The position numbers were made by a program, and so were the translations under genes. Below the pieces are notes generated by a model, which saw nothing but the letters and a program-made list of their open reading frames with translations, was not told the DNA's origin and did not search any database. Below are positions 10,269 through 35,400 of a stretch of DNA of 64,000 bases, one piece after another. Numbering within the stretch: the stretch's first letter is position 1; each line of letters starts with the position of its first letter. Origin of the DNA: Patiria pectinifera (taxonomy: Eukaryota > Echinodermata > Asteroidea > Valvatida > Asterinidae); contig CM057134.1 in the NCBI GenBank assembly GCA_029964075.1, forward strand, positions 20,004,905 to 20,068,904, read 5' to 3'.

Positions 10269-10453
10269 ATGGCGTCCGTGTTGCAGACAGATGCCAGTCA
10301 CCACGGGTCCATAGTGTCTTACGAAATTCCAGAAATAAAAAAAGGCGACCTACAGTGCCTAAAAAAGCTTGGGGAGGGCGGCTTCGGAGAGGTTTTCAAG
10401 GCACACCATGATCCATGGAGTGAAGAACTAGCTGTGAAAGTTCGCAAGAAACA
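10269..10453 (+). CDS. RIPK1-like exon 1 (coding part)
   Basis: It encodes the N-terminus, the Gly-rich loop and the AVKV lysine. It ends AACA|GTATGT. The exon itself starts at 10225 after TTCATTCAG, so 10225-10268 is 5' UTR. Confidence 0.88.
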
Positions 10454-13400
10454 GTATGTTACATAAAAAGTATACACTGTACAGCTTGTCCCCCAAAAAG
10501 TGTTCGTCTGGCGTCTGCCTTATTTTTGAAATAACAAAACCATAAGGTCAATTTTTAAAATGTTTAGTCGTGCAGATACTCCTAAGCCTTGGCCTCAGTC
10601 CCTATGAGTTTCATTTAATTTCAGTCACGCATCACTTGAATTAAACAACTTTCATGATGAGTAATTGTGCAACTTTCCGTTTGCCAATTATTTTTTTTCT
10701 GGTTTGAAAATCTTGGCATGTTTGCATTGCACCCCATGCCTCCCCTTCACCGGTGCCCACAGATCAACTGGTCCCAATTTTTCAATTTGTCCTTTCACGC
10801 AGATGCAAATTGGTCGCTCACAATCTTTCGCTCTTGTGCTCTTTATTCTGTTCCGTAGTTTGTCGGACGACGATAAGAAAATTGCACTGAGGGAAATCCA
10901 ACGAATGATCAAAACCACCAGCAATGAACACATTGTCTCGATCAGAGGCATTGTGACAAACGTGAGCCCCTACAGTTGCTGTATCGTCATGGATTTTATG
11001 GAGCACGGGTCACTGAAGGCCTTCCAGAACAAACTAGATCGATTCCCAAATGCAGTCAAAGTTGAAATGATCAAGGAAATCACACTTGGAATGAGCTTTC
11101 TACACGCACTGGAAGAGCCCATCATCCATCGCGACTTGAAGCTGGAAAACATCTTGGTTAATTCGCGGCTAAAGGTCAAGGTACATTGACTTCCAACCTA
11201 CATGTAAAGCATCATTCACAAATACCTAAGACAGTTTACCCATTCCCATTGGTCGAGAGCATGTCTCGTGGCCGGTCTTAAACGGATGAGTCAGTATTTC
11301 ATAGTCCCTAATGCACAACTTGCTAACCACAGCTGCATCTGCGCATCATCACACAGGCACGCACCAGTCTCCATAAAAGGAGTTGTTTACGTCTTACTCA
11401 CTAGCTTGACACTCCATTAAGCTAGAGGGGCGTTTCAAAAAACAGGAAATGAAAATGTTGAACAAAATCATTGGAAATTGTTGAGTTTTGACTTGTTTTG
11501 ACTTTTGGACTGAAAAGTGTTGATTTTTTGACCGAAAAGGTATTTATGAATGTGAATAAGTATGTGCTTGGTCGGTATTAAACACTATGTTTAAGACTGG
11601 TTGGATTCTGGAATGTTAATGCAGCATTCCAGACTCCAACCAGCTTTGAGTCAAAGTGCGCGTGGCTAACCCCCCTAATATGAATCATGCATGTCATGCG
11701 GATATTATGAACCAAATGCCACCAACAAGCCATTTTGTTAGGTGATGCCGTGCGGGCGGGCGGGCGCACGCCGCCACGTTCTTAAAAACAAGCCTTTTAG
11801 CACGCATTTTAGTCAATAGTAATGAATTATGCATAACAATTTCTCTACCAAATCGGTAGATAAAATGTAAAGAAAAAAAACATAACCATTTTCCATGAGA
11901 TAGTGAAGGCCCTAGTGGCTTTGCCACTTGCACTGGTCTTGTTTTTGTGTCATTATCTTGGGCGCCACACGTTCGGGGATAGCCACACGGGCTTTGACTA
12001 GAGGGTAGCACTCACGTGATCTTCTTTGTGATTGGTTTTGACAGATTTCTGACTTTGGTTTGGCAACATGGTGCACTGCAACAAACCGTAAAGAAACAGG
12101 AGGAACAATCACCCACATCCCGCCAGAACACCTTGAAGACATTAACGCAGAGGTCACAACAAAGTTTGATGTCTACAGGTAAGTGCTTGTTCTCAAAATC
12201 AGTTTTGTCAGAGATTTGTTTTCATATACAGTGGAACACCGCTATAACGAACATCGTTGGATCCACAGAAAGTGTTCGTAATAATGATCATTCCGTAAAG
12301 CGATTTTGAACTGCCGGCCCCCTTTTGAGCAGTAGTAAAGTGACATTTCTCACATCCTGCGGCCGCACGAGGAGTCGTCATGAAACTTTAGCATCGGGTG
12401 TTTTTATTCCTTTTATTCCTTGGGGAAACAATAGCCATCTGTCGCTCTTATACATTCAAACACGACGTAACTATGGGTCGTTTGATGCTCGGTAATTAAA
12501 AGTGGCCCAAATAGCTTTTAATACAGCTGGTAGTTTTTTGTGAATCTGTTGACTCTTTTCAACAACTATGTTCGGTACATTTTGAACATTAAAAACGAGA
12601 GCCAAGGATGATGTTTGGTATAGCCGAATGTTCGGTATAGCGGCGTTCCACTGTAGTAGGACAGAATTTGAATTTATAAAAAATAAAAAATTGTACTTCA
12701 AACAACTATGGCTATTTTATTTAATATCATGTATGTGATTTATCCATTGATCTTCACTAGTAAGACTGGATAGGACAAAGCACCGTCCATCTTGTGCACG
12801 CACACTTATTCATCGGTGAGGGATGGAAAGTTTTAAATGCGTTTGTCACACACAGACCATACAGCGTTTGGTCGCAAACGTTAAACCCGCACTGTATTAC
12901 CCAGCTGTTTGTGTCCGCGTTTTTGGAATCTTCACTGAGTGCAAGTATACGCATGTCCTATCCAGTCTGCTAATGGAGATCAATGGATTTATCCCTCTCC
13001 TGAAAATGACCGTTGTTCTTGTGTGTTTTACACTCGTTGCTTTACAGCTTCGGCATAACATTGTGGCATTTAGCCTCTCGTCGACAGCCCTATGAAAGTG
13101 AGTTATCATTCTTTTAAGTTCGTAAAGCGAGAAGTTTTGTGTGCTTTATGTGTTTCCACATATTTTAAACAAATAGATTTATTAAGGGAATAAATATGTG
13201 TTTGGCTGGTTTTAAACAAGATGTTTATTTAAAGACGGCTTTGGGGTCTGGACGCTGATAATTACCCTCACTTTGTATAAAAGTGGCCAAACACACATTT
13301 AGTCATTAATGGATACCTTTTTGGTCAAAAACATAGAAGAAATAGATAAAACCTTGCAAAAAGTAGAAACATTGACAAAATTCCGCCAATTTTTTTTTGT

Positions 13401-16400
13401 TCACAAATTTCAGGTTGGATTGCTATCCATGTACGGGGCCATTTCTAGAACAGCAAGCATGAGGTTGCATTCCTCATTAAAAAAATACAACCCAAGATGA
13501 CACCCTCAAAGAAGCTACATGTACATGTACTTTGAGGATTTTTAAATATCAAACATTGTTTTCAGGCATTCTTTTACCACAAAATGGGGAGAAAAGCGAG
13601 ACAGCCTCAGCAGATTGTTTGACGTTTTCTTGATATTCTTAGCTACCGGGCCGAGTGCGTAGCCATATGATTTTGTGAGCAGATTTGTGAAACTTAAACC
13701 ATGAAAACGGTGTTGTAAAAAAAGATTCACATTTTCAAAATCTTGTACGTACCAAGGGCCTGCTTGTACTGAGAGTACGAGGCAAGTAAAGTTTGTCAAT
13801 ACGTCTTGTTTTGGAGAAAAGTCAGATACGAATCTCGCTAAACTGCGTTTGTTGTGGTGTATTTCGGCCACAAGACTGGCCCTTTTTTGTGTACGTGTGT
13901 GAGTTGCTAGCCTGACTTCGTTATGTACGTACGCATATGGCTGTACTAGTTGGTTGTGTGTACAAAACTGCCAGCTGCATCACTGGTACACAGTGAGGTA
14001 GCTAGTGGCCAGGGGGCGAGCAGACGAAATTGTCTTTTAACTTTTTAGTCTTTATTCAGCCATGTTTCCTTCCCATCACTATCAGACGAATTTAACTGAA
14101 AATGATTTTATATCATTTTTTGAACTTCAAATTCCTTTTTTTTTTTTTAAAGAGCACAGGTATATAAGAGAAGTAGTCCAGAACAATATACACTGCATGG
14201 CAATGTAACCACTAACCTGTTTGTAGTAAGCAAATATTTTCCGTGCTTAGCCAATTTCTCTTAAATTGCTGTCTGATTACACTATTGTGTGCTCAGATTG
14301 CCTTGGAAATGATGCCTTTATAAAAGTATGCGTCACCGGTGGTCAGAGACCAGCTATGAAATGGATCCCCGATAATGAGCCTGACATTATCAAGCAACTG
14401 ATCGAGGAGTCTTGGCACCAGGACCCAGACAAACGACCGGACTTTCAAGGTGGGTTTTTATCAAAATATCTGGGATGCACAAGCAGCAAACAGTGACAGA
14501 TAGTCTATTTTGTTTGTGAACAGGATACTTCACTGTGTGGTACTGCAGAGAATCCTCACTTTCTTTGTACATAGATCCATGCCTAATTTTCGTTGAAATA
14601 ATGATTTTTGTTTTCTAGTGTTGTGGTTTATTTTTTTTTATTATGTTACCTATTAGGTGGCATTACTATTTTGCTCATGGATAAGGTTGTCTACTCCATT
14701 AATATTGGTATTCTGTCACAGAGATAACTAGGAAGGTTCATGATGAATTCCTGAAAAACTACAAAAGGGACGTTAACAAGGGCCGTATTGATATCTTGGA
14801 GCAGTTGGAAAACATGTCATCCAACCAGGTAACTAATTCGGGCACAATGCAGTGCACTACCCAGAGTTTGCCATGGAGAGTCCACTTTTCAAGTTTACAG
14901 GTACCGTAACAAAACATGGCCCATTTGAACGAGTGTCATCAGACAACTTGAGCTAATTTGTTATAGATTGGTGCATAGCGTTCTGCCGCCTTACAAAAAA
15001 CACCATGTTGATAAAAAGAAAAGAACAGGGCAAACTATATACTCGAATCATACGCTTACGAAACTACTGACCGGAAAAAATTACAATTTCAAATGTCGCA
15101 CGCTGCAAATTTGTCGACCATCTCCCATAATGCACTGGAAAAAATGAAATCTCCATGGCTAACTCTTGGTGGTGAACTGCATTGTGAAACGCCTGAATTG
15201 CTAAGAAGTTCAGACTTATTGAGAACCTATATGTGACCCACTCCACAAAAAAGGGTATTAAGTCGCGCTGAGCATTATTGTGTAATGGCCCGCACAACAT
15301 TGAGAAAATGTGATTTTCATTTCCTACAGTGTCAGGTTTCATTCACAGAAATGTTGATTTTGATGAACAAAGTGAAAAAACAACCATTTTATGTTCATCA
15401 TTCTGTTGTTCTACAACAAAGCCAGCTATTTCAAAGCCTGTTTTTTTTCAGTTGTTTAATTTGAACTCCAAGGAAGTAATTAGTATGCAAATTCGTCATA
15501 TCCCCAGAACAGGAGGGGCTATGGAGCTCTATTATGTACCAAACGAAAGTTTACATTGTGGGCTTTCCAACCATGTATGTAACTCAATTTTACTTTTTTG
15601 CGACATAATACCCTTTTTTGTGGAGCCAGTCACATATAGTCCTGTTTGATGTGGATGTTCTGGAATGCTGTCAAGGTCCTCTGAATGGCACAGCTAGGTT
15701 TATGACACCTCGCCCACCGATTCTGCCTTTTCATTGGCTGAGAGTGCATCACATGGTTATAGCTATGTTTACTCTCTCTTGCTGCAGGTGCACAGCTCCA
15801 AAGGGAGGGGGGTTGGGGGTAGGACACCCTCTGATTCGCTCTTTTCACACTTCCGCCATGGGCATGCAGAGCCTCGATCTGGCAACTTTACACAATGAAT
15901 ATAGCCGGTTCAGTGATTCCCGTGTCGGGGTTCAGATCACTGAACCGGCTATTTTTATTGTGTAAAGTTGCCAGATCGAGGCTGTGCATGCCCAATGGCG
16001 GAGTGTGAAAAGAGCGAACACCAAAGAAAACATTGTAACAATAAGTGCATCAGTAACAATGTGCTGCATTACCTAGGTCTGCCTGTCCGCAACAATCAAA
16101 ATTCCTGGACTATACAACGCATAGAGCCAATGTAGCAACCAGAAGTCTGTGTGCTATGCATTCGGATGTGCATATTGTTACCGTGGGCTACGTAGTTGGG
16201 TTCAAACATTTCATGAAAGTCTAGTGCAAGTCAGTTTTCAACTCATTTCATTGAAAAAGAAGTACATTTTTATTGGATTTTGATTTAATTATCAGTTGAA
16301 AATCAAGCAGAATCTGTGGTTAATGAGGCACTATAATAAGTATTGACTGCATTTTCTTGTGTGGTAAAATTAGCCTCCCTCATTGATCCATGGAGCATTT

Positions 16401-19400
16401 TTATTTTCACTGTTTTAGTGCCACACAAATACATTGCACATCTGCTAACACTAAAACGTGACATGAACATGTACTCCAATTATATAAAAAAGTAAAACAT
16501 ACCAATATATATACAAAAATATTTGCATCATTAAAAGTTAAAAAAAAGTAACTTGAAGTGAATTAAATAATAGAATACTTCAAAGGGATTCCTATACTGT
16601 GTGCCATCATGAAACATTATTTAGAATGCAAACTTCTGTTGGGAAAACTAAACAGCGTAAGATTGGAACTGGATTTAATTAATATATATTAGTTGTTTGA
16701 TCGCATAGGCTGGAAGAACTTACGTGTTGGATGAAACTTGTTCTCTTCGAGAGACTCGGCCCGTTTCTTTTCTTCGGTAGAAAGTACTGAAGACTTTGAA
16801 GACGTTGTTGTCTTTCTTCCAGGATGATGCGGATGAAAGTTGTTTATTTCCATGGCAACAGAACTCCGGTCCAGATTTGACACACACAGACGCAAGATCT
16901 CGAGCCTTTGATCTGCCGAGTCCAGCCCCGTCAAACGACAGCCCACTAACTCTGCAGTCTATAGATCCAATCAACAGACAGAAATCAAAGGACCTCGGTT
17001 TCCCTGTGGCTGTCTCTGACCCACAAGCTGAGGGACAGCAAGATGGTGTGAGTGATATCGAGACAAAAATGAAAGTCATGACGGTTAACAGTAAGTAACT
17101 TCAGTTGGTCTTTAACCTTTCACCCCTCATTTCATACCTGTAGTCTGAGGTAGGTGTGGTTCAGATGTTCAGGAAATATAGGCCTGTTCAGTTTTTGGGG
17201 GAAGATGGGGTAGCACCCGGTCACTGTTTTAAATTGTTCGAATTAATGGGGATATCACAGTTTTGTTGGACAATCAATCTAAAAAAAAAATGGTACAATC
17301 GAAAACATTAAAGAAAAAAGACCTGGCTTTCCAATACTTTTTGTTTCATCTCATTTGCTTTTGTCAATCCAGAGATAACTACAATTTACTGCAGAACACA
17401 AAAATCGAGTTTGTTTCTTTTGCCCAGTTGCAATCTTTTGTGAGCTTCAAGACAGCATGGCACAGTACTCGAAACAACTCTGCCCATGCATAAAAGTGGC
17501 ACAAAATCGATTTTGGTGTATCGCACTAAATTGATTATATCTCTGAATTGACAAAAGCAAATAAGATCAAACAAACACTATTGGAAAGCCCAGTCTTTGT
17601 TCTTTAATATTATGCCAAGTAAGAATGATTTATTCTGAAATTTCATATTTAACCAATTTTTTTCTGATTGTACCATTTTTGTTGAGACAGGCTGTATAAT
17701 AAATCTCCGTGAGGTTTCCTCTAAACAGTACACAGCATGAACTTGAAACTTTGAACAAACATCAACCCTGAACACGAGGTGTGCATATTACTATGACATC
17801 ATCATGACATCATCAGGCATCAAATTACAAGCGGTTTTAGTTCAAAACAAGTCCATCTTTCATTCACAACTCGAAGCATTTTTGTTGTTACAAACTCAGG
17901 TTTATCGGGCAGGTAATAATTCCATTGGCCATTGCACTGTGCAGTCGTAAATGCTTTTATTTGAAAACAGAAAAAGTTTTTTTAAAATTCAGCCTCTCCA
18001 GTTTTGAAAAAAAAATGCTTCCTGTTTTTTCTCCCACATTACTCCCGGTTTATGATGTAATTAGTGAAAAATGTGAAAACTGAACATTGATTTTGTTTAC
18101 AATGGATACATATGCAACATAAAGTGAAAGAACCTCTGAAAATAAAAAATTACACAAATGTATTAGTGTATGTATTGATTACACCTTTAGAACTTCCCTT
18201 TTGATGGTGTCACAGCATTCGGAAGCCCATTGTCAACAGTGTTTATCTGCACTTCACACTCCGCCATTGTATACGGATCAAATCATTTGAATGATGGTAT
18301 ACAAATATTGAGTGGCTCAGCGTGGAATGGGAGGAATATTATCGCAAGGTAAAATCTGGAGTGAAATGGAAAAGTCCAGATTTTACCAAGCGATAATGTT
18401 CCTCCCATTTCACAATTTAAAGCCACTCAATATTTGTTTTATATAACTGACATATAGATCCTTGTCATTTGATATATTTGGACTTTTATTTCAATACAAA
18501 ACTGGAGGAAAATGTATTTCTCTCTTTGAAACCACCCCTTAACGAAAATGTTTGAATCCAACGCCGTAGCGCTTGCTCTTTGGAACAATACGCGCTACGC
18601 GCACACCAGCATGCATTTGCACACAAATACCGCGTCATGATCCTAACTGTTGAATAGTATTTCCCATTCCCCATGGGCGGATAGTACTTTTTGAGCCGCG
18701 GCGTGAATGGGAGCAATAACAAATGCCACGTGATGTGAGTTCCACCAATCAAATGACAAGGATCTGTATGTCGGTTATATAAATTGAAATGAACCAAAGA
18801 AAAGCAGTATGCTTTTCAAATTCTCCCAACAATAACTTCCCATTTGATGACATCATCATACCTAAGCTTTGTGAGGTTATTTTATGGTTGTCCAAATCAG
18901 GATTGTAGGCAATTTAGGACAAAATATTAACAAATTAATTTAAACTTTAAAACAAAATAAGCTTTCATCAAATTAGGTTTTGCCCTTCGTCGACGTATAA
19001 ACACTGTATACTCAGTGTGTTAAAATAAAATAAGCTTTCTTATGACATACCATACCAGTTTCGGGATGGTGATGTCAGCAGACCGTAAGTTATTGTAGGG
19101 AGAATTTGAAAATGGGATTAGATTATTTTTTCTTTTAAAGTACAAAATAATGATATCTTTTTTATTTTGTATTTTCTTATTTTGAACAAGGTGATAAGTA
19201 TGGTGTGCCTGACACCACGCCACATGAGCAAGCCACCCCTACTGGCTGTAATGGAAGTGTCTCCAACATGTCAGAGGATGCTGCGGGAATATCCACTGGA
19301 CAGGTCCATTGTATGAATAGTGATGCTGCATCCCTGCAACCTGGTAGTTCTGCCACTATCCAGCCTCAAGCACAAAACAGTGGATTTTCTGAACAAAGCA

Positions 19401-22400
19401 AGTCTGAGAGTCCCTTGGTTACTAATTTACTTAAGAAAAAATTAAAGGAAACATACAACCTTTGCAGACATCAAAAAAACAAAACTAAAAAATATTATGA
19501 AATAGATACAGCTGCGTTCTGCGCCACTTTTCATGCACGAGTCAATGATCTCCATGTAAAGAATTGTTTTCGACAGTTGTTTATGTAGCAAGAGGGTTGT
19601 TTAAAAGAACATGAAGTAAACTTGTTGAACAGAATCGTTGGAAATATATAGTTTTTGCATTGTTTTCATTTTTAGACCGAAAAAGTTTGATTATTTTTTA
19701 ACTGAAAGGGTAATTATGATTGGGAATAGATATTTGCTTGGCCGGTATTTAAACTGTGTTTTACAACATAAAAAAAACCCCCAATACTACCAAAGTAGTA
19801 GGATTACCTTACGGGACCTTTAGTGAATGACAGTCTAAAGCATCCTTTAAAATCATGGCACCTGGTGTGCTGTCATTTTTAAGAAAAGTGGTATTTTTGT
19901 GTCAATGTTGGCCGACCAGTGTTAAAAAAGTGGTGTTTTTTTCAAATACTGTCCCAAATTGTTTGCAATCGATTATGTACCTATGAACGGGTAGGAGCCA
20001 GCTAGACTGGTTCTCAAACCTTACAATTTCCCGACGTCTAAAAATTGCTGTGGGGTCTTGGAACCAGACCTCAGGAACATGATTGTTTTTCTTGGTATTT
20101 CCAGCATCTACGGACGCAAAACTTCAAACAAGTCAGTGCAACAATTTGCTAAAAAATACACCCCAAATCTATCCATTTCTGAAAATTACAGCAATTTTTA
20201 AGCAAATGTTGTATATTCTCTTCTGTTGCTGATTTTGTTTTCTAAAAAAAGGTGGCCTTTCGCAACAAGGGCAACAACAACATCCAGAGCAACCATTGCA
20301 ACAACCTTCAACACATCAAGAACAACCGCTTTCTCAGCGGCAATCTTACTCCGACTCTGTTTCTTCTTCCATTCCACAGGTATACAAAATAGTTTCTTAA
20401 TGTACATACATGTATATGAGTCCAATTACAAAGCAATCAATCAGATTTGGTGTTGGAAAGGTTATCGCCAAAAGAGTGCTTTTTGAAGAATGTTTTCTTG
20501 CATATCCATGTAGATGAATAACATTTTGTACTCCTTGTGCCCAGACTTGTATAATTCGAGTCACCAAACATTGTGTCCGAGTCTGAGTCCCCTCTCCCGC
20601 GTCTGTGTCCGAGTCCAGAGTCATGCAGATCGAGTCCGAGTCATGTCACAAAGGTTGAGTCTGATTTCAAGCCGCGGAAAATGGGACTCAAGTCAGACTT
20701 GAGTCTGAGTCCAATTCACTGGTCATACAACTCTGCTTGTTCCATCCTGATTCAGTGCCATATACTTCAACTACAATTGACAAGAATGATCCTTATTTTC
20801 CATTGGAATGGGTCATGGAAAGCCTCAACCTTTGCAGTATGTTAACTGAGCATTTCTCAATAAGTGGAATCTCACAACAACATATTTTGTACTACCAGTT
20901 ATGCCTTAAATTGTTAGCAATATCTTTACTCTGTTTTTTATTTGATGTGTGCAGAATGTTCCGAGTCCTCATGCAGCGAAGCCCGAACGTACTTACAGCA
21001 ATGGTATGTGTAGATTTTCCACTCCAGTTTTGCAAAAAAAAGACATAATTTTGTCACTCTGTTGTGTACAAATAAACGATGTCAGGAGAACTTACATTGA
21101 CCTGACCGAACCTGACCTGACGCTTGTGGATTAAACTGTTTATCTCACTGACTAACTGTCACTTGTGAATTAGACTGGTTACCTTTCTCACTGACTGTCA
21201 CTTGTGAATTGGACTGGTTACCTATCTCACTGACTGTCACTTGTGAATAAGACTGGTTACCTATCTCACTGACTGACTGTCACTTGTGAATTAGACTGGT
21301 TACCTATCTCACTGACTGTCACTTCTGAATTAGACTGGTTACCTATCTCACTTACTGACTGTCACTTGTGAATTGGACTGATTACCTATCTCACTGACTG
21401 TCACTTGTGAATTGGACTGATTACCTATCTCACTGACTGTCACTTGTGAATTAGACTGGTTACCTATCTCACTGACTGTCACTTGTGAATTAGACTGGTT
21501 ACCTATCTCACTGACTGACTGTCACTTGTGAATTAGACTGGTTACCTATCTCACTGACTGTCACTTGTGAATTAGACTGGTTACCTATCTCACTGACTGT
21601 CACTTGGGAATTAGACTGGTTACCTATCTAACTGATTGACGCTTGAGAATTAAACTGGTTACCTAGCTCACTGAATGAATGTCATTTGTGAATTAGACTG
21701 GTTGCCTATCTCACTGAATGAATGTCATTTGTGAATTAGACTGGTTACCTATCTCACTGACTGTCACTTGTGAATTAGACTGGTTGCCTATCTCACTGAC
21801 TGACTGTCACTTGTGAATTAGACTGGTTACCTTTCTCACTGACTGTCACTTGTGAATTAGACTGGTTACCTATCTCACTGACTGTCACTTGTGAATTGGA
21901 CTGGTTACATATCTCACTGACTGTCACTTGTGAATTAGACTGGTTACCTATCTCACTGACTGTCACTTGTGAATTAAACTGGTTACCTATCTCACTGACT
22001 GACTGTCACTTGTGAATTAGACTGGTTACCTATCTAACTGATTGACGCTTGAGAATTAGACTGGTTACCTATCACACTGAATGAATGTCATTTGTGAATT
22101 AGACTGGTTACCTATCTCACTGAATTAATGTCATTTGTGAATTAGACTGGTTACCTATCTCACTGACTGTCACTTGTGAATTAGACTGGTTACCTATCTC
22201 ACTGACTGACTGTCACTTGGAACATACACTGGTCTGGGACCGGCGTTACGAGGCTTGCGAATGTGATGTAGCTTGTACTGTACACCACATGTGCATTAGT
22301 CTGGCGCTGCATGTTGCATGTTCTTTCATGCGAGCGTCAAAAGTGGATTTCTCATTCCCGTCGTGCATGTAAAACAGCTTTTTTACGAAGTGTTTAAGTC

Positions 22401-25400
22401 ACTCCGAATCAATTGAATAAAAACTTCTGCACTCTGGGACCAGCTTCAGTAGGCTTGCCTATCCTTGAATTTATGATTTGTTGGGGGGTGAGTTCAGTTT
22501 GTAATTTGTTTTAATTAATTTTTGTTTTTGCTCACTGCTTTCCCCAGCTAACCCGATAAACATCAACGTCAAAGGTGATGGAAATGTTGTATCAGTAGCT
22601 CAAAGGGGCGGTGTAATCCACATGGGCAAGCCTGGTAAGAAAAATAAAAAGAAGTCCAAGAGAAAGAAACCCACTCCCCCACCATCTTCCTCTTCTTCCT
22701 CTGCGTCTGATTCGGACGAAACAGATTCCGTAGCTGGTAGAGCACAGGCAACTCCTCTAACCAGTAAGTGTGCTTTAATAGAAGGGGTGTCGGACGCTTC
22801 GCCCCATTTCCACGTCGCCCCATGTCACTTCGCCCCTAACCACTTCGCCCCATCCCCACCTCGCCCCATCCCCACTTCGCCCCATCCCCACTTCGCCCCA
22901 TCCCCACTTCGCCCCATGAAGATTGGTTCCTCCAAGAGTGAAATTAGGATGTCAAAGGTATTGTCGTTCTCAGGTAAGTTGGAGACGGGTTGGTATAGCC
23001 GGGTTGGGAACAAAGTTGGATCTTTTACTTCAAGCTTTTTTTCTCGGTTGGAGAGTGATAGCTTGAGAGGTTGGTTATGAATTGTTTATTTGGTCAATGT
23101 TGGTGGGCTAATTCTTTCCGTTGGTTAGCAATTAGTGAATCTGTTGGAATTGTTTTTAAACCAATAAAATAGATGAGGATTTTTTTTACATGTAACACTA
23201 ACAGCTGGGGCGAAGTGGGGATTGGGCGAAGTGGGGATGGGGCGAAGTGGTTAGGGGCGAAGTGACATGGGGCGATGTGGAAATGGGGCGAAGTGTCCGA
23301 CATTCAATAGAAGATAGAGCATTGCAAAACAACAAAAGGATTTTTAGGGGTTTTTTTTTGGGGGGGGGACCAGTAAGCAGAAGATGAGTGCAAAAATTTT
23401 CAGTAACTTGACCTTCAAGAATTGAATATTGGGTTTGTAGTAAGAGTAGTTGTTTTTAAATCTTTGGAAGCAAGGTAGTGTAATGTACCAGAGGGTGCAC
23501 TACTTGACAAAAACCCAGTCAAAGTCTCATGAGTCTTATTACGTAATGAACACTCAACTAAACCATAACTTTTGTGTTTCTCTGAAGTACTGATTCACTG
23601 TCTCAACTAATTAACTCCGGTTGATTTTGTTTATTTTACTCCATTTTGAATGCTTGTCATGGTGCTGTTTTGTTTTGCGCTAAGTCCTGATTTGAAGCAC
23701 CCTTGTACTTGTTGGAGTTTTCCTATCAGAGTTTTTGGCATACATAAACATAAAGGACCCATGTAGTGGATGTTTTGAATCTCAAATTCTCTCCCTTTTA
23801 AAAAAAAAATGCCATTCCATTATTAGCTTCTTGGGCCTTTTGTTGTTTTTGTTCATTTTCCCCCAGATTTTAACCTCTGATTAAAAACGTTTCTCTTGTT
23901 CATTTACACATGTATCTTGCTTTACATGGACAGCAAATCATTAGGCGCATTTGATGTCATAAGCAATCTGTTGCTTGTCGATTGGGGCGGGGGTTTCAGG
24001 ACACAATCAGAATAACACACTCAGGCCCTGATATTTGCTGAAACATTTCTGTTATTGCTCAACTTATTAGCACAGAAACACACTTACTACTTCAAAACAT
24101 ATGACTACAAAAACTACAGAAACTTCTAGAGGACAAGCTGGCTTCCGAGAACAGGCTTTCCAGTCCTTTTGGCAGGGGCGTCTGCCCAGATGCAAACGTG
24201 TGATTGTGCCCTATCAGCCGACCGGCTCACACGTTACACTGGCCCCTTTGAGGGCTCTTATTTGCCCCCAAATTAATGGTACAGGGCTCGCCCGAGGGTG
24301 AGGTTGGAGAGGGGGCGGGGGTTTCAAGCAAGAGAATGAGCTCTCGTGACCTAAATAGATGGTGGCATTCTTTGCACCTCTGTTTGCATAAAGAATTCAT
24401 CCTAGAACTCTGGGGGACGTTCTCTGGATATTTAATGGGTGGGGGAGCTCCCAGCACAGCAGGCCTCCAAGGAACGGTTGGCCTGCCACGGAGGGGGTGA
24501 CAAAATACTGGTCGTCCTGGATAGGTTGCTAGTAGTCTCCCTGGTACCTCATATGTTTGCCTGACCACTCGTCTGGCAAGTGTTCACAGAGAGGCTCAAC
24601 CATTTCTGTGGCACAATCCCTGGCAAAAAATTTGGCTTGGATGGCACACGGGATGTCTATGGCCAAAAAAGACCCATCTGGTAACAGCAACCATGTAGAT
24701 GCTGTGGCGGTAAGACCAGTGTAAGCCATGGTCTGTAATTGGTCGAACTGCAGTTCATGAGGCCTGCCCTGGCTGTCGCCCTCGTTGGTCTGAGGATTTG
24801 GGCCATCCGAAAGGGTAGCAGGTGCCGTCACTTCATGGGATCTCTCGGGTGGATCTCGTTGGGAAGATGGTTGTGGCCGCTCCAAAGGGATTATAGTATT
24901 GTTGCCTTGTTGTGGCCATAGCGGGGGCCGCGCTGACTGGTGATGGCCCCTCTCGGTGGGTGGCTGTTTTTCTGGTCTTTCTCGTTGGTCTGAGGATTTG
25001 GGCCGCTCCGAAGGGTAGCGGGCGACGTCATTTGGTGGGTATCTCTCTGGTTAATCTCATTGGGAAGTTGGTTGGGGCCGCTCTGAAGGGTAGCTGGCCC
25101 TGTCACGTGGTGGGTGTTTCTCGGATGGATGTATTTGCTTCTGAAGGTGGGGACCACTCAAATGGGGAGCGGGCCCTGTCGCTTGAGGGTGTCTCTTGGG
25201 TGGATCTCGTTGGGCTGATGGTTTGGGCCTCTCCGAAGGGTAGTGCTGTAGGGCTGCCCCCTTCTACAAACTTTTTTGTGTCGACCTCGGATATCAAGTT
25301 GTGGAATGAATGGCCCTTCCCACACTCATATGGCTAGTTGTACTCACAGGATGTTTGTAGGTGTCACCAGAGGTATGTTTTCTTGAAGAAGGCCCTGCCT

Positions 25401-26585
25401 CAAAGTGTGCACCTTATGGCATTCATTCTGTCGGGGGAAGAAGAAAGGTTAGTAAGTAGGTGGCAATTTTTTTTAGGTTAATGGGTCAGCCACACCGTGT
25501 TTGTTGTTGGGCCCCTCCGCAACCTGCATTGGCTCAGGTTCTGCCCCCCTGATATGTTGTTGTTTTGGCTCCCCCACCTGTCGTGGTTCAGGGGATGTCG
25601 TGTCCCCCTCTGGCTTTGGCTCTCCCTCTTCTTCCACTGACTTAAGTTCCATGGTTACACTCACGGGTACAATTCGGGCCCACTAGACTGCTTGCACTTC
25701 GCCAAGGTAGGGTTTAAGACGATTATAGTGCACATCCTTGGGTTTGGAAAGAGGCGACCTCTGAATCCTATAAGTCACTTCTTCGATCTGTGACAAAACG
25801 ATGAGCGGCCTGTCGCACCAGCACTGTAGTTTGGGAGCTCGTCCCACTTTCCTTCGGGGGATGAAGAGCCAGACGGGGTTTCCAGGTTCGTAGCAAGTTC
25901 CTTGCATCCTACGGTCGTAACACTTCATCTGGTGCAGTTGGCTCGCTCTCAGGTGACTTCTGGCAAATTTGTAGCTGCTGAACATACTCATGTAGGTCAA
26001 AGGGGGCATCCATTCCCTCCCCTGAAGCCTTGAATACCAGGTCCAAGGGTAGACTAACTTCTCTGCCGAGCATGAGCAAATTTGGTGTCATCATCTTAAT
26101 GCTGTCGTATTGGGTAGAAGAAAAGAACAAAACAAGGCCATGGTATACGCCAGTAGTCCGACCGGCCCAAACACTTCCCATCTTTTGTTTTTTTTAGCCA
26201 AGCAAAAGTTGATTTAAACAATGTGTACATTGAGTGTTTAATTTTTCAAAAGCCAAAACAGAATTCACTTTGAATTCCCCGTTGAATTTTTTTCTTTTTT
26301 CAACTTTGCTGTACTCCAGCTTCCAATGAGCCCGTCACAGAGACCGATATCCGTGATATCTCCGAGCACATCGGTAAACAGAGCAGAGCTCTTGGAGGGC
26401 AACTTGGATTGAAACAAGCTCACATTGAAAACATCTGCCTTGATCATGAAAAATATGGCCAGCAAGAAATCACCTTCCAGATCTTGCTGAAGTGGATTAG
26501 AAGTAAAAGTAAAGCTGCCACTAAAGCGGTGCTGGCTAAGGCGCTGGACAAAGTTGGTCTGCGGGACGTCGCTGATACGTTGTAA
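10269..26585 (+). CDS. RIPK1-like: RIPK1-like receptor-interacting Ser/Thr kinase with death domain (12 exons)
   Basis: The coding exons are 10269-10453, 10859-11180, 12045-12178, 13048-13097, 14297-14449, 14722-14828, 16823-17090, 19191-~19343, 20252-20379, 20955-21003, 22548-22763 and 26320-26585. All are joined in phase, giving about 676 residues. The start ATG sits in CCACCATGG. Kinase motifs are the Gly loop LGEGGFGEVF (~34-43), AVKV Lys57, a likely helix-C Glu74, HRDLKLEN (152-159) and DFG (172-174), then HIPPEHL and SFGITLW. A Gln/Pro/Ser linker (~318-516) is followed by INVKGDGNVV (~522-531), a Lys-rich run, Ser/acidic sequence and a death domain (~590-676). Kinase, linker, RHIM position and death domain follow RIPK1, a cytosolic adaptor kinase of death-receptor signalling; function here is inferred by family. 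The exon-8 donor is uncertain. An upstream non-coding exon is likely because an acceptor precedes the ATG at 10224. Confidence 0.88.
10859..11180 (+). CDS. RIPK1-like exon 2
   Basis: The acceptor is TTCCGTAG and the donor AAG|GTACAT. It covers helix C (ALREIQRM), the hinge (VMDFMEHGS) and the catalytic loop HRDLKLEN. It completes the codon split at exon 1. Confidence 0.9.
12045..12178 (+). CDS. RIPK1-like exon 3
   Basis: It opens with ISDFGLA (the metal-binding DFG) and contains the activation segment GGTITHIPPEHL, then FDVY. The acceptor is TTTTGACAG and the donor CAG|GTAAGT. A pogo-like MITE sits 50 bp downstream. Confidence 0.9.
12229..12653. mobile_element. pogo/Tigger-like MITE (TA target site)
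   Basis: The left end is CAGTGGAACACCGCTATAAC and the right end, reversed, CAGTGGAACGCCGCTATACC. Both are flanked by TA. CAGTGGAAC-CGCTATA termini are typical of pogo-class Tc1/mariner elements. It lies in kinase intron 3 and has no transposase. Confidence 0.82.
13048..13097 (+). CDS. RIPK1-like exon 4, 50-nt microexon
   Basis: The acceptor is CTTTACAG and the donor GAAA|GTGAGT. It encodes FGITLWHLASRRQPYE, kinase subdomain IX, and restores the reading frame between exons 3 and 5. It is too short to stand out as an open frame. Confidence 0.85.
14297..14449 (+). CDS. RIPK1-like exon 5
   Basis: It encodes the C-lobe segment with IKQLIEESWHQDPDKRPDFQ (subdomain XI Arg). The acceptor is GTGCTCAG and the donor CAAG|GTGGGT. 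Confidence 0.9.
14722..14828 (+). CDS. RIPK1-like exon 6
   Basis: It encodes the end of the kinase domain and a charged helix (EITRKVHDEFLKNYKRDV, then ILEQLENM). The acceptor is TCTGTCACAG and the donor CAG|GTAACT; the phase fits both neighbours. Confidence 0.85.
15230..15636. mobile_element. MITE with TATGTGAC inverted termini
   Basis: Inverted ends of about 38 bp share CTCCACAAAAAAGGGTATTA; TA flanks both sides. It lies in kinase intron 6. The superfamily is not certain; Tc1/mariner is possible from the TA. Confidence 0.72.
15835..16018. mobile_element. Foldback hairpin element
   Basis: Two arms of about 85 bp are reverse complements, sharing GGCATGCA, CCTCGATCTGGCAACTTTAC and ATAGCCGGTTCAGTGAT, around a loop of about 10-15 nt. 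It lies in kinase intron 6. Transcribed, it would form a long hairpin. Confidence 0.8.
16823..17090 (+). CDS. RIPK1-like exon 7, linker
   Basis: It is 89 codons of low-complexity, Ser/Pro/Asp-rich linker with no catalytic motif. The acceptor is TTTCTTCCAG and the donor AACA|GTAAGT. Confidence 0.82.
17282..17690. mobile_element. Diverged TIR element
   Basis: ATGGTACAATC near 17290 and its complement near 17670, and TTTGCTTTTGTCAATCCAGA near 17357 with its partner near 17540, mark inverted halves. The boundaries are approximate. It lies in kinase intron 7. Confidence 0.55.
18301..18437. repeat. Inverted repeat, ~60-bp arms
   Basis: The left arm starts ACAAATATTGAGTGGCT and the right arm ends AGCCACTCAATATTTGT, with GGTAAAATCTGGA near the turn. 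It directly abuts the next TIR element. Confidence 0.72.
18438..18783. mobile_element. MITE with TTTATATAAC inverted termini
   Basis: The left terminus is TTTATATAACTGACATATAG. The right, reversed, is TTTATATAACCGACATACAG. Both continue into ATCCTTGTCATTTGAT. The target duplication is not resolved. It lies in kinase intron 7. Confidence 0.7.
19191..19343 (+). CDS. RIPK1-like exon 8, donor uncertain
   Basis: The acceptor is TTTGAACAAG, in phase with exon 7 and opening SDKYGVPDTTPHEQ. The frame stays open to 19588. Phase demands a donor splitting after one base: CTG|GTAGTT (end 19343) or AACA|GTGGAT (end 19379) both fit. Neither is a strong site. Confidence 0.6.
19620..20230 (-). mobile_element. 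Diverged minus-strand copy of the TTAA MITE
   Basis: Reversed, it matches 6519-7007 in blocks: GATGCTGGAAATACCAAGAA, GTCTGGTTCCAAGACCCCA, and AGCACACCAGGTGCCATGAT with TTTAAAGGATGCTTTAGACT. The ends are decayed and the boundaries approximate. It lies between kinase exons 8 and 9. Confidence 0.6.
20252..20379 (+). CDS. RIPK1-like exon 9, Gln-rich
   Basis: It encodes 42 codons dominated by Gln, Pro and Ser (GLSQQGQQQHPEQPLQQPST). The donor is CACAG|GTATAC. Gln-rich linkers are prone to length variation. Confidence 0.78.
20555..20715. repeat. Degenerate GAGTCC/GAGTCT repeat
   Basis: Phrases of GAGTCC, GAGTCT and GTCCGAGTC recur through this part of kinase intron 9. It is a low-complexity tandem repeat with no coding evidence. 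Confidence 0.55.
20955..21003 (+). CDS. RIPK1-like exon 10, 49 nt
   Basis: It is a small exon encoding NVPSPHAAKPERTYSN. The acceptor is TGTGTGCAG and the donor AATG|GTATGT. The following intron carries the 39-bp minisatellite. Confidence 0.75.
21125..22225. repeat. 39-bp minisatellite array in kinase intron 10
   Basis: The unit contains TGTCACTTGTGAATTAGACT, then GGTTACCTATCTCACTGAC (39 bp). A 43-bp variant adds another TGAC, and a few units read GAATGAATGTCATTTG. There are about 27 units with small substitutions. It occupies most of the intron between the 49-nt exon and the RHIM-position exon. Confidence 0.92.
22548..22763 (+). CDS. RIPK1-like exon 11: RHIM-position motif and basic stretch
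   Basis: It encodes NPININVKGDGNVVSV, then GKKNKKKSKRKKP and a Ser/acidic tail. The acceptor is CTTTCCCCAG and the donor ACCA|GTAAGT. The beta-prone, Asn/Gly-containing motif sits where RIPK1 has its RHIM, but the canonical Ile-Gln-X-Gly core is absent. Confidence 0.82.
22785..23305. mobile_element. TIR element with CACTTCGCCCC repeats, 8-bp target duplication
   Basis: The target duplication AATAGAAG lies at 22777-22784 and 23306-23313. The termini are inverted: TGTCGGACGCTTCGCCCCAT left, TGTCGGACACTTCGCCCCAT right when reversed. Both run into tandem CACTTCGCCCCATCCC units. An 8-bp duplication fits hAT or P-like elements; the family is uncertain. It inserted just 21 nt after the exon 11 splice donor. 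Confidence 0.82.
24780..25262 (-). repeat. ~75-bp tandem repeats within decayed retroelement region
   Basis: About five degenerate units share CTCGTTGGTCTGAGGATTTG, GGGCCGCTCCGAAGGGTAG and GTGGGT. On the minus strand they read as a repeated peptide resembling THQMTSPATLRSGPNPQTNE. It lies downstream, on the minus strand, of the Gypsy pol fragment. Confidence 0.7.
25472..26181 (-). pseudogene. Gypsy/Ty3 retrotransposon pol fragment (integrase C-terminal end), frameshifted
   Basis: Minus-strand peptides are characteristic of Gypsy integrase ends: TPNLLMLGREVSLPLDLVF (about 26050-26110) and, in another frame, PGNPVWLFIPRRKVGRAPKL and YRIQRSPLSKPKDVHYNRLK (about 25700-25900). The frame changes near 25.9-26.0 kb, and no reverse transcriptase or RNase H part remains upstream. 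Paired LTRs were not found. It lies antisense within the last kinase intron, just before death-domain copy A. Confidence 0.8.
26320..26585 (+). CDS. RIPK1-like exon 12A: death domain, terminal exon copy A
   Basis: It encodes an 87-residue death domain with GGQLGLKQAHIENI, LLKWIRSKSKAATK and LAKALDKVGLRDVAD, then TAA. The acceptor is GTACTCCAG. It resembles the RIPK1 death-domain pattern of helix 2-3 (LG, Q, I) followed by a KW motif. Confidence 0.88.
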
Positions 26586-26819
26586 GACAGACTTCCTATT
26601 TGGATTGTTATTCTCTTCTTGTTTTAATATTGTCAACGTTATACCACTTTGTACATAATGGCAGCTGTAATGCAACTTTCAACCGCTCTCATTAACTCAT
26701 TATGGCATTGCAAAATAATTCATTGCCAATCTCTGTCACATTTATATTGCCCTTCCATGTATTGCATGGCAGGAAATCATTAGGCACACCTGATGCCATA
26801 ACCGTTCGTCTGGTTCTTG

Positions 26820-27085
26820 GTTCTTGGTTGGTTCTTCTCCTAAATAATCCACGTGGGAGTTTATACAGGAGGCCAGAAACACCGGGGCAAACCCCTTCTC
26901 TTAGCGATAAGTGTTTACTGGGTTCTTTTACGTGCATTTATACAACACACGGGACCTACGGCTTAACGTCCCATCCGAAGGACGAAGCAATAATGGTTAA
27001 GTGCCTTGCTTAAGAGCACAAGTGTCCGCCGGCGGGCTCGAAAAAGTGAGTCCGGTGTTCTTAACCGCTAGGCCATCACACTCCA
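26820..27085 (-). repeat. tRNA-derived SINE between the two death-domain exons
   Basis: Read on the minus strand, the A box is TGGCCTAGCGG and a B-box-like TTCGAGCCC follows. The body then has CTTAAGCAAGGCACTTAACC and TCCTTCGGATGGGACGTTAA. This type of SINE body is common in marine deuterostomes. It separates the duplicated exons. Confidence 0.75.
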
Positions 27086-27271
27086 TGGGTTTGTCTTTAG
27101 AACAGCAAAAGTTGATTTGCACAGTGTGTGTATTGATTGTTTCATTTTTCAAAAGCCAAACAGAAATTATGGCAATAACAATCCCCTCAAGGAACCACAA
27201 CATACAATAAGTGCGGAATTCATTACGATGCCCCGCTGAATTATTTGTTTTTACAACTTTGCTATTTCCAG

Positions 27272-27537
27272 CTTGCAATGAGCCCGTCACAGAGAAAGAC
27301 ATTCGTGGCATCGCCAAGTACATTGGGAAAAACTACGAAGATCTTGGAGGGCAGCTTGGGTTGAAACAAGCTCAGATTGACAACATCGTCCTGGATAATG
27401 AAAAATATGGCCACAAAAGTATTGCCTTCAAAATCATGCTGAAGTGGAAGCAACGTGAAAGTAAAGCTGCCACTAAAGCGGCGCTGGCTAAGGCACTGGT
27501 TGAAGTTGGTCTGCGGAGCATTGCTGATATGTTGTAA
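27272..27537 (+). CDS. RIPK1-like exon 12B: duplicated death-domain terminal exon
   Basis: It has the same length (266 nt), acceptor phase and stop position as copy A. By my count about 57 of 87 residues match. Its motifs are GGQLGLKQAQIDNIVLD, IMLKWKQRESKAATK and LVEVGLRSIADML, then TAA. Flanking intron sequence is also duplicated (CAAAAGTTGATTT and TTTTTCAAAAGCCAAA precede both). It can splice in frame from exon 11 and so would give an isoform with a different death domain. A fused downstream gene or an unused exon cannot be excluded. Confidence 0.8.
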
Positions 27538-28097: not shown

Positions 28098-28103
28098 AAT
28101 AAA
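28098..28103 (+). promoter_or_regulatory. Candidate poly(A) signal for the kinase gene
   Basis: AATAAA lies 561 bp after the stop of death-domain copy B. A hAT-like element begins 20 bp downstream, where cleavage would be expected. The assignment is by position only. Confidence 0.35.
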
Positions 28104-29641: not shown

Positions 29642-30650
29642 ATTCCAAAAGTGCTACCCTAGATACCCGGGTATAATACGAAACAAAAGGCTGTTTCCAA
29701 AGGTCTCCACAAGGATATTTTTTAAGGTGTAAAGGTCTCCACAAAGGTTTCACGTAATGGATTATACATGTACTAAAAAATAAAGTAGTAATTTCCAAGG
29801 TGTACAGTGTACTTATCCATCTTAATTTAAAGTAGTTTGTGTAAGGGGCATTTGGTAATAACTTCGACCAAGGAATGTAATTCTGGTTCAAATATTCGTT
29901 TTGAAAATAGCTTTCGATCCTCTAATCCGTTTGTACACAAGAACGTACAAAGCGATGTCTCCACCAGGATACACATTTTAGAATTGGTGTACAATGTGTG
30001 TGTGAACTAATTAACTGTATTGACGATTTGTACTTTTGCAACTAGCATTTGTATATCAAACGGCTTCCGACGATTTCTTTTAACTATTTTACAGTGTTAA
30101 TCTGAGAAATGTGCCCATCTGCGCCTTTGAAATAAAATATATATATACAAAATTAAATATACATATACAATTGGAAAATTATTTTGAAACTCCCCCCAGT
30201 TACCAATATAATTGTATCACTGTAATACATGTATTTGTAAATGGGTCGCTTATTCATGTTTATTTTTTTCGAGAACAACTTGCAACGAACGAACGAACAG
30301 CCAAAAACGACAGTGAAATATTGATGTCGAAATGAAACAATTAATCCCGTATTATTTTGAGATAAAGTCAACGCTTATGCAAATAATCTCGCGGCGCTGA
30401 AGTAAATGTACAACTAGTGTGGCAAATAGGGACATGTAATCATTAAACGAAAACCGATAACTATGCAGAGAAATTGTCCATCTGTCTTTTTCCGTTGTGA
30501 GGCAGTCAGCTAACGCAGAGCTCGCGCTGCCACCGTCCACTCGTTTTGATTTACCCACTCGCCTGCTGCTGAATCGCGGTGCTGCATGCAATTACGCATC
30601 AAAAAGGTGACTTTCAAGGGTTGTTGGTCGTCGTCGTCGTCATTGTCGTG
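29642..30650. other. Upstream flank of the first transporter gene
   Basis: It is AT-rich intergenic sequence. It must hold the promoter and any 5' UTR of the transporter starting at 30651, but I see no convincing TATA box or transcription start. The open frame continues upstream of the ATG to 30579 without another ATG. Confidence 0.35.
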
Positions 30651-32402
30651 ATGGGGGATGTGAGTTGCTGCGGTCAGATCAGGGACAACATCGTCCGGAC
30701 AAAAGTAGTGACCACAGACCTGAGGTCCACCCCACTACAGAGATGTCTGTCCACTGTAGATTTAACCTTTATTGGTATTGGGTGCATGCTAGGGTCTGGT
30801 GTGTACGTCCTAACGGGTGAAGTAGCCGGTGAGATGGCCGGTCCTGCTGGGTCCATTTCCTTCCTCCTGTCTGGAGTGGTAGCTTTCCTGTCTGCTATTT
30901 GTTACTTAGAGTGCGCCACTCAGCTTCCAGAGACCGGTGCTTCCTACCTGTACACCTACGTCACACTGGGGGAAATGATGGCTTTCATGATCGGTTGGAA
31001 CGCCGTGGTCGTTCGCGTCTTCGCCACGGCTTTAGTCTCGCGGGGATGGAGCGCCTACTTCGATGATGCCATCGGTGATCACATCAGTAACTTCACCGTG
31101 GCGTTTGTGCTGAATGGTGAGGAATGGTCCATCCCTGTCCTGGCTAGATACCCAGACTTTGTAGCTGGTCTGGTCGCCCTCTTTGCTTGCCTCCTGGTTG
31201 CCGTGGGAACGGAAGTCTCTGCTAAGGCAAACATGTTCTTTGTTTTCATCAACATCGTGACCATCGCGCTGGTGTTCATCTTCGCAATGATCCATGCGGA
31301 CTTCTCCTTCTTGACCAAGCACGGCTTCTTCCCGACCGGCTTTGGTGGCGTCATGACAGGCGCCGCGGCCTGCTTCACAGGGTACTGCGGCTTCGAGGCC
31401 ATCGCTTTCAGTGCTGAGGAAGCCAAGAACCCCAGTAAGGGCCTACCCATCGGCATTATTGTGGCCTTCTTGGCATCGATCTTGTGCTATGTGGCTGGCA
31501 CCTTCTCCATCACCGTGCTCTCAGATTACCAAGATATCAACCCAGGATCTCCATTTGTGACAGCCTTCGAAGCAATCGGACTTGACTGGATGAAGTATCT
31601 GGTGGCTGTAGGCGCCTTGGGTAGCATGACCGGAGGACTTATCAACTGTGCTTTCTGCCTGGCTCGAAGCATCTACGTCATAGCTAGGGATGGTCTTCTC
31701 CCTGCCTTCCTCTCTAAGACCAATGCCAGGACACAGACTCCCGTGGTTGCTACCTTTGCTGGGGCAGTCCTGACCGTCATTGTCAGTGTCATCATTGACT
31801 TCCTGGTCATCATCCAGTTCTTGTCCCTTGTAGCCTTCGTTGAGTTTGTCATCGTTGGCATGGCGGCGGTGATTCTCCGCTACCGCCCCCCAGTCCGATC
31901 CGGCTATTCCGCCATTGACGGCAGCGACAGTAGTACTAGTAGCTGCGACAACGACGACGACAATCACGAAGATCATAACGACGGGGAAGCCGACACGGAG
32001 ATGTCCGGGGAATACCCTCGCCGGCTTGTCAAGAAGAAACCACGCGATCGGGACACGGACAACCACAATTCTACCAAACACGGCGAGAAGTCCCCGTTGT
32101 TGGGAAACTCATCTGGTGGTGGACTGCACCGAGCGGCATCTGCCGCCAGCTCCTTCTCTTCATCGGGTTCAGCTTCCCGTCGATGGATCGACAAACATCC
32201 CACCCCTACCGTCATCATCTCGCTGAGCCTCCATCTGCTGTTCGAGTTTATCGCGATGGCTCTCTTGACCTACAAGATGGCCGAGCTCCAGGCTATGGAC
32301 GGAGCCGTCGTATTTGGCGTCGCTTTCAGCGCCGGGCTGGCAATAATCTGTTGTTGGCCACTGTTTGTCTTACCACAGTACAAGGAAGGAATTCCTTTTA
32401 AG
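30651..32402 (+). CDS. SLC7-like gene 1, exon 1 (1752 nt)
   Basis: One uninterrupted exon encodes 584 residues and most of the membrane domain. The donor is AAG|GTAATT, phase 0, after GIPFK. Confidence 0.92.
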
Positions 32403-35400
32403 GTAATTATTTGTTATGTTTCAGTCCCGATTGAGGTCATCGTCTAGATCATATATTATACAGCAACCTGGAATTTTAAACAAAAGTTTATTGGCTTGCC
32501 ACTTCACTCTTGGCCTGAACAAGTTAGTTCCTTCAACATAAATTAATGGAAAGAATGTAGTATCCAGACGCCACTTCAGTGGTTGTGCACAAAGTCGATG
32601 GAGAGTCGAGAATACTTTTAAGGTATTTTCTAACAAAATTAGAAATGTTTCTCAGTCCCAGATTCATGTCTTTTCAACATTTTTGCAATGACTGACTCTC
32701 ATTGAGATGATACATGAGGAAAAAAGAGTAGCGTCAGGATGCAACATTTTTGTCCAACAGAATGTCCTTCATAAATTGGTTGAGCATAAATTGGTAGACT
32801 TAGGTGGCACTAATTATTCTTTTCAACTACATGTATACCTAAAGTAACCATCAATGAATTTGTGCTCTCAAAAGAACTAGAAAAGAAATTCGTAATTTAA
32901 TGTTTCGTTTAAAATGTTCTGGGTTTCTTTTCAACACATTAAGGCCTAAATGATTATTTTTATGTCCGAGAATGAGCAGAATTAATTGTGGGTGTCTTAT
33001 TTAGTAGGTCTAGGCTACTTCGTTCATCTATTTTGCTGATGGTACTCGGTTTCGTTTATCTTCTGAAGGATGCAAGAGTATAAAAAGGTTAACATGTTTG
33101 TCCATGCTCAGGTCCCTTTAATGCCGTTTGTGCCACTCTTTAGTCTGCTCTGCAACGTCGTTCTCATGGTTCGCTTTGACGCCATTGCCTGGCTGGAGTT
33201 CCTCATCTGGACGTGTGTAGGTAAGTCTGGGTACTCGACCGGAACGTTAATACAAGGAATGTTATGCTCTGAGACCGAGGTGATCTTAACCCTTCAAGTG
33301 TTAATTTCTCTGAGATGGTTTCCTCGGAAATGATTTTTTTTTTCAGATTTGTTGTATTCAAGTAAACAAAACACACATTCATACTTGAGACATGGTTGAA
33401 GTTGAGCCCACTCTTTGAGTGACCGGCTTTCCCTGTTACATGCACGGTCAATGAAAAATCAAAGATTTTTTAGTTACCTTGCGTCAAAAGTTTGACATTT
33501 AAATTTTGACATTTAACAAAGTTGAATTGATCATTTATTAGTACTACAAAAGTTATGAACTTTCTAATGAAACATCGAAAGAAAGAAAAATCGGTCCATG
33601 CAAATTTTTCAGTTCAGCTTAAGACTTGACTCAAGTCGTGAAACGGGCGCAACATACTGAGCCCTTTGTACACTCTAAAAAATAAATTGGTTACGATTAC
33701 CAATATCAGACGTCTTTTAACCAATGTTATGCGTCAATAATGTGTCCAACTCACTTTGTGGGCACAATGACCAAAGGACCTTTGGTTAGCTATAATAACC
33801 AATATTTCTGGATAAATCATTCAACCCTGATCACGTGAAAGCTACGTGAAAGCATGGTTTAACCAATTATCTTGGTTAAATTAGCCATTACGAGGCCAGA
33901 CACAATTAACCATTTGTTATGGTGAATATTCAACCAAAGCTTTGGTTAACTTAATGTAAACGATTTAACCAACCAACTTTGGTTATCGCTGACCTATGCC
34001 ATTGGTTACTTTAACCGACAAAATGGTTAAAATAACCAATTTTATTTTACCACTTTTTTGGTTAATAATTGACCAAGGCTTTTACCAAAAGATTGGTCAA
34101 GGTGACCAGTATGTCTTAACCCATGAAAATGGTAACCAGTTGACCAACCGACGGCTTTAGGTCTTAACCAATGTACAGTTTAAAATAACCAAAGTGACAT
34201 GACGAAATAAGTTTGGTTATTTTTAACCAGCTTTTTTCGACGTGTATATGGAATCATTGCCTCTAAATGCCAACAAAAAAAGTTAAAAAAATACATTCCT
34301 TCAAAAGTCGTTCGGAATTTTTTTTTTATTTGAAAAATCACTGGATGCTAACTTTAAGTCATTCTTTTTTTAAATTCTCACTCAGACTTTCTGTGTTAGC
34401 TCTTCAACAAAGAGAAAAGGTCATGTTAAAGTCATTCCAGTAGGCCATTCATTACATATTTTTGAGCATATTTACAGTGGTTTTTTTCCAAGTCTAATTT
34501 GCATGTCGGTTATTGTGCTTATGTCATATTATCGACGTTGACCCTTTACTAGTAATATCAGTTCAATTGATCACTGAGAAGCAACAGCTGTTGTGGGGTT
34601 TCAATACAAGATAATTTGGCCACTGAAAATTATATTCCTGTTTATCATGCAAAAGCTTAGATTTTTTGGTTAGTGGTTGACATATCTAAATTTCTCTTCA
34701 TAGTGATCCAATCCATTTCCTTCCTTATACATTTTTTTTCTTTATCCTAGTCCTTTAAGAGAATTTGTTTCTTCTGGAAGTCTCTCTCTTCTATGTTTTT
34801 GTATTTCTTGTTACACACTCTAAGAAGTCCCTCTTCATATTGACCCGGAGTCCGGGATTTCATTTGGCCTAACCCTTTTCCGGGTCCAAAAAAATGGCAA
34901 TTTCCCGGGTGAAAATGACACTTTTCGCCAAGGCGGAACGTCATTTTTGAAAAAGTGTCACTTTTGATCCGGAAAGTGGAGTCGTTTTTGACCGGAAACG
35001 TGTAATTTTTGACCCGGAAAAGTACCATTTTTGACCCGAAATAGTGTCATTTTTGACCACGAAAAGGGTAATTTTGACCCGCCGGAGGAGTGTCATTTTT
35101 GACCTGAAAGAGTGTCACTTTGACCCGAAAAAACTTATTTGTGACCTGGAAAAGAGTTGAGCCATATAGAACCCGGAATCCGGGTCAATCTGACCATGGA
35201 CTTTTTAGAGTGTGTTGAGTGCTTTTCAGCCTATAAGTGGCAAATTTCCTTTAAAAATAATGGGGAAAATTAAAGTATCTTCCAATTTCAGGACTGATTC
35301 TGTACTTCACCTACGGAATGCATCACAGCGCGGAGGGCAAGCGGCGTGAGGAGGCGGCCCTGCGGAGTGCCCTGGCCGCCGCGGCGCGGCTACGGCCCGC

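Follow-up and report, generated by a model that had tools for sequence, protein, structure and literature searches.

A RIPK1-like kinase gene of Patiria pectinifera with a tandemly duplicated death-domain exon and two candidate endings

The kinase gene

The window analysed here is a stretch of 64,000 nucleotides from Patiria pectinifera (assembly GCA_029964075.1, contig CM057134.1, positions 20,004,905 to 20,068,904 of the forward strand). Its + strand carries a kinase gene whose model, confined to coding exons and starting from the ATG, joins 11 upstream exons in consistent phase from the ATG at 10269 to a donor after 22763. Exon 1 (10269–10453) encodes the start, the glycine loop and the AVKV lysine, exon 2 (10859–11180) HRDLKLEN, exon 3 (12045–12178) SDFGLA, exon 4 (13048–13097) FGITLWHLASRRQPYE, and exon 5 (14297–14449) the end of the kinase domain. 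The intermediate region starts in exon 6 (14722–14828) and continues through exon 7 (16823–17090), exon 8 (19191–19343), exon 9 (20252–20379) and exon 10 (20955–21003; 49 nt). Confidence is lower for exons 8, 9 and 10: the donor of exon 8 is weak, and restoring the phase was part of the reason for picking exon 10. Exon 11 (22548–22763) contains an IHMG motif and a basic, serine-rich linker, and ends at the donor common to both of the endings described below.

Joined, exons 1–7 run without a stop and encode a kinase domain that contains the lysine, HRD and DFG motifs and matches Pfam PK_Tyr_Ser-Thr at 173.4 bits. The N-terminal domain is of RIP type: among the best 60 of 1167 PDB matches, RIPK1–4 make up 32 of the top 33 (133.5–141.3 bits; the remaining one is named EGFR), with scores so nearly equal that RIPK1 and RIPK2–4 are not separable by score. 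The phase left at the donor (CCA/GTAAGT) fits the acceptors of both terminal exons, and with either one the predicted protein is free of internal stops and 676 residues long, similar in length to vertebrate RIPK1 (671 residues in human). The original prediction of a RIPK1-like kinase with two fitting last exons is thus borne out, with a RIPK-family kinase upstream in phase and both exons fitting one donor.

RIPK1 has been defined by a kinase domain, a RHIM tetrad (V/I-Q-V/I-G) and a death domain (PMC12119088). The tetrad is absent from both joined proteins and from the three + frames of 14829–22763, and Pfam gave no RHIM match. The only RHIM-like site found is IHMG at protein residue 540, which closes a glycine- and valine-rich stretch at the start of exon 11 (22548–22634); this stretch matches neither Pfam RHIM nor any solved structure at E<1. 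With only IHMG and no Pfam RHIM, we did not accept a canonical RHIM in exon 11. Because IHMG lies near the position of the human tetrad (IQIG, residues near 542; PMC12119088), a diverged RHIM in this region is possible. We call the gene RIPK1-like because the canonical tetrad is missing.

We note several other features of the locus. An in-phase donor-like GTAAGA lies within exon 11 at 22635, and its use would remove the basic, serine-rich linker that precedes the death domain. About 27 tandem copies of a 39-nt unit (21123–22219) lie in the intron before exon 11. Thirteen bases after the common donor, the following intron contains a foldback element (22777–23313), bordered by an 8-base duplication, AATAGAAG; its 97-nt arms (22788–22884 and 23206–23302) are 96% complementary and composed of 16-nt units, and it could fold next to the splice site serving both endings. 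Further along the intron before exon A, the - strand carries retroelement remains (25686–26087; Pfam Integrase_p58_C, 31.6 bits, cut-off 27). Two amino-acid permease-like stretches lie downstream on the + strand, the first (30573–32444) being one open frame 624 codons long, the second (43677–45402) consisting of two shorter pieces, of which one scores below the Pfam cut-off.

The paired terminal exons

Terminal exons A (26320–26585) and B (27272–27537), both on the + strand, each encode a death domain and end in TAA. As had been predicted, the two are of equal length and phase: each measures 266 nt from acceptor to TAA, begins CAG/CT and holds 87 open codons. The claim that about two thirds of the residues match also stands, 57 of the 87 being identical. 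The alignment has no gaps; 53 of 261 coding bases and 39 of 87 codons differ, nine of these codons synonymously only. A repeat search of the window returned a direct repeat of 300 nt (80% identity, offset 952 bases) spanning both exons. The intron before each exon is duplicated as well, as the original prediction stated, since a 70-nt intronic repeat (83%) precedes each one (26188–26257 pairing with 27091–27160). A tblastn search of the window with A finds B at E=1e-33 and otherwise only matches with E of at least 5.4; neither domain as query brings up a third copy there. Searches of phage records returned nothing, and none of 134 pattern matches in viral contigs was confirmed by tblastn; both were remote chances. 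A haplotype or assembly duplicate would be unlikely, given 80% identity and many gaps in the flanks. The exons are adjacent and homologous, share a phase and have their own acceptors and stops, which is the make-up of tandem duplicated alternative terminal exons. Judged from the sequence, the exon duplication is genuine and the pair is probably functional.

Both copies are C-terminal death domains of the RIPK1 type. Pfam Death scores A at 38.8 bits and B at 40.7 bits (cut-off 22.6), and the best PDB match of each is the RIPK1 death domain (E=1.8e-7 for A, 8.8e-8 for B). Confidence is low in the AlphaFold models built from two-row alignments (mean pLDDT 51.3 for A and 49.3 for B). In a Foldseek search with model A only, the human RIPK1 death-domain filament ranks first, as a weak match (E=0.064, rmsd 9.6).

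It had been proposed that core positions are kept and surface positions changed. The trend is visible, as residues differ at 4 of 21 core positions (those hydrophobic in both RIPK1 and THOC1) and at 26 of 66 others, but the contrast is not significant (Fisher p=0.12). NG86 dN/dS is 0.12/0.21 in the core and 0.25/0.34 at the other positions. Charge is altered at 15 of the 30 differing residues and reversed at four (positions 15, 22, 62 and 77). Position 21 is serine in A, tyrosine in B and tryptophan in RIPK1 and THOC1. The counterpart of K599 of human RIPK1 (numbered by counting from R603 in the human sequence) is residue 22, where A has arginine and B glutamate. In the PDB alignments, the R603 position is occupied by glycine and the K627 position by isoleucine in both A and B. 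According to PMC12297241, the substitutions K599R, R603Q and K627R disrupt homodimerization of RIPK1. The arginine of A need not behave as lysine, since K599R itself disrupts dimerization of the human protein, and assembly cannot simply copy the human one because of the glycine and isoleucine in both copies.

Constraint on the copies and a possible choice of ending

The explanation that we favour, if not strongly, is that the terminal death-domain exon of a RIPK1-like gene underwent tandem duplication and that a single kinase uses the two copies as alternative endings. The donor at 22763 would join A, or skip A to join B; both messages would end at poly(A) sites beyond B, and exon B would form 3′ untranslated sequence in A-type messages. 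That there are two isoforms appears likely. We hypothesise that their death domains differ in partners or in assembly strength.

The foremost competing explanation, which we regard as unlikely, is that one copy is a decaying duplicate, unused or noisily spliced, leaving a single working death domain. The comparison of substitution rates proposed with the original prediction did not demonstrate purifying selection, since dN is close to dS (dN/dS of 0.22/0.30 by NG86, 0.19/0.26 by LWL85, 0.25/0.21 by YN00 and 0.24/0.25 by maximum likelihood), and is compatible with the relaxed constraint expected of decay. Overall identity alone also fits neutral change: in neutral simulations (3000 unconstrained runs each, with 53 or 26 changes), 8.9% and 7.3% of the runs with 53 changes attained 57 matches in 87. 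The loss of the aromatic residue at position 21 in A is a further point for decay. On the other hand, both frames are open, without a single indel, both acceptors are kept, and both copies pass the Pfam Death cut-off. Stop-free copies made up 16% and 18% of the runs with 53 changes and 39% of those with 26.

The residues that were kept are more telling than their number. Scored against the human RIPK1 death domain, B reaches 115 and A 107; neutral copies of A averaged 52.6 after 53 changes and 77.5 after 26, and attained the score of B in 1 and 8 of 3000 runs, respectively, which speaks against decay of B. Neutral copies of B attained the score of A in 1 of 3000 runs with 53 changes, again counter to decay, but in 114 of 3000 with 26 changes, which decay of A would accommodate. 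With THOC1 as the yardstick, the score of B was reached in a fraction of 0.0003 (53 changes) or 0.006 (26 changes) of runs, and that of A in 0 or 0.015. The identity of the residues kept therefore argues that B is maintained as a death domain, with weaker support for the maintenance of A.

None of ten poly(A) hexamers tested occurs in the 686 nt between the stop of A and exon B. The next hexamers lie within exon B (27460 and 27472), and the first AATAAA after it (28098–28103, + strand) is a candidate shared poly(A) signal. The empty interval changes how a choice of ending must work, because A-type messages probably extend across B and terminate where B-type messages do. It is also in keeping with a different and improbable explanation, that A is always the coding end and B merely 3′ untranslated sequence, either left unspliced or joined to a donor close to A's stop codon. 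Donor-like sites suited to such splicing exist: a GTAAGA overlaps the stop codon in each copy (at 26582 and 27534), GTGAGT occurs at 27046, and splicing from 26582 to B would yield death domain A ending in TFLQ. Against this account, B scores far above neutral expectation as a death domain and has a good acceptor, for which a 3′ untranslated stretch would have no use. We rejected a tandem protein containing both A and B, as splicing from the donor-like site where A ends would put B out of frame.

That B is part of a separate downstream gene that acquired a death-domain copy, to which alone it is spliced, is a very improbable account foreseen in the original prediction; we found no point in its support, only 686 nt separate the stop of A from B, none of five open frames examined within or spanning this gap matches a Pfam family, and the next clear coding stretch after B is the permease at 30573.

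Under the favoured explanation of two alternative endings, it is conceivable, although doubtful, that choosing the last exon would switch the upstream wiring of the kinase, and that the opposite charges of isoforms A and B at the K599 position would direct them into separate assemblies or let one block the other, with splicing setting their ratio, for example upon immune challenge.

Relation to known systems and meaning

The predicted protein resembles vertebrate RIPK1 in its N-terminal RIP-type kinase, long intermediate region and C-terminal death domain matching that of RIPK1. It differs in having neither the V/I-Q-V/I-G tetrad nor a Pfam RHIM, in the residues at the R603 and K627 positions, and in its two death-domain exons. 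The RIPK1-like kinases of Acanthaster planci and Branchiostoma likewise combine a kinase with a death domain (PMC11507063), whereas a doubled death-domain exon is not described for them in the portion of that paper drawn on here. The same source reports the RHIM as absent from the starfish Ap-RIPK1 and the lancelet Bl-RIPK1. According to part of PMC12119088, lancelets, zebra mussel and Lingula have retained the RHIM, and that study found no RIPK1 of this kind in echinoderms, so that the two papers disagree.

Tandem alternative terminal exons are already a known kind. In Drosophila, PGRP-LC and pip have tandem duplicated terminal exons that are chosen in a mutually exclusive manner (PMC9013439). 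The present gene shares the duplicated terminal exons, with a choice that we infer from sequence, and belongs to another protein family. The excerpted account of PGRP-LC and pip deals with competing RNA pairing and with 3′ regions that are variable or untranslated; here a crude and insensitive pairing test (30 plain shuffles each, long strands) gave nothing beyond the shuffles. None of the literature matches listed (titles and abstract starts) describes duplication of the death-domain exon in a RIP kinase. The statement in the original prediction that no such RIPK had been described agrees with this literature search; gene predictions in animal sequence databases may list both isoforms already.

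RIPK1 selects between survival signalling and cell death through the death-domain partners that it joins. If our explanation is correct, a single kinase that naturally occurs with either of two death domains would amount to a built-in swap experiment, and would provide matched natural variants at K599, a position reported to matter for assembly. It would also mean that the choice of partner can be set by splicing instead of gene duplication.
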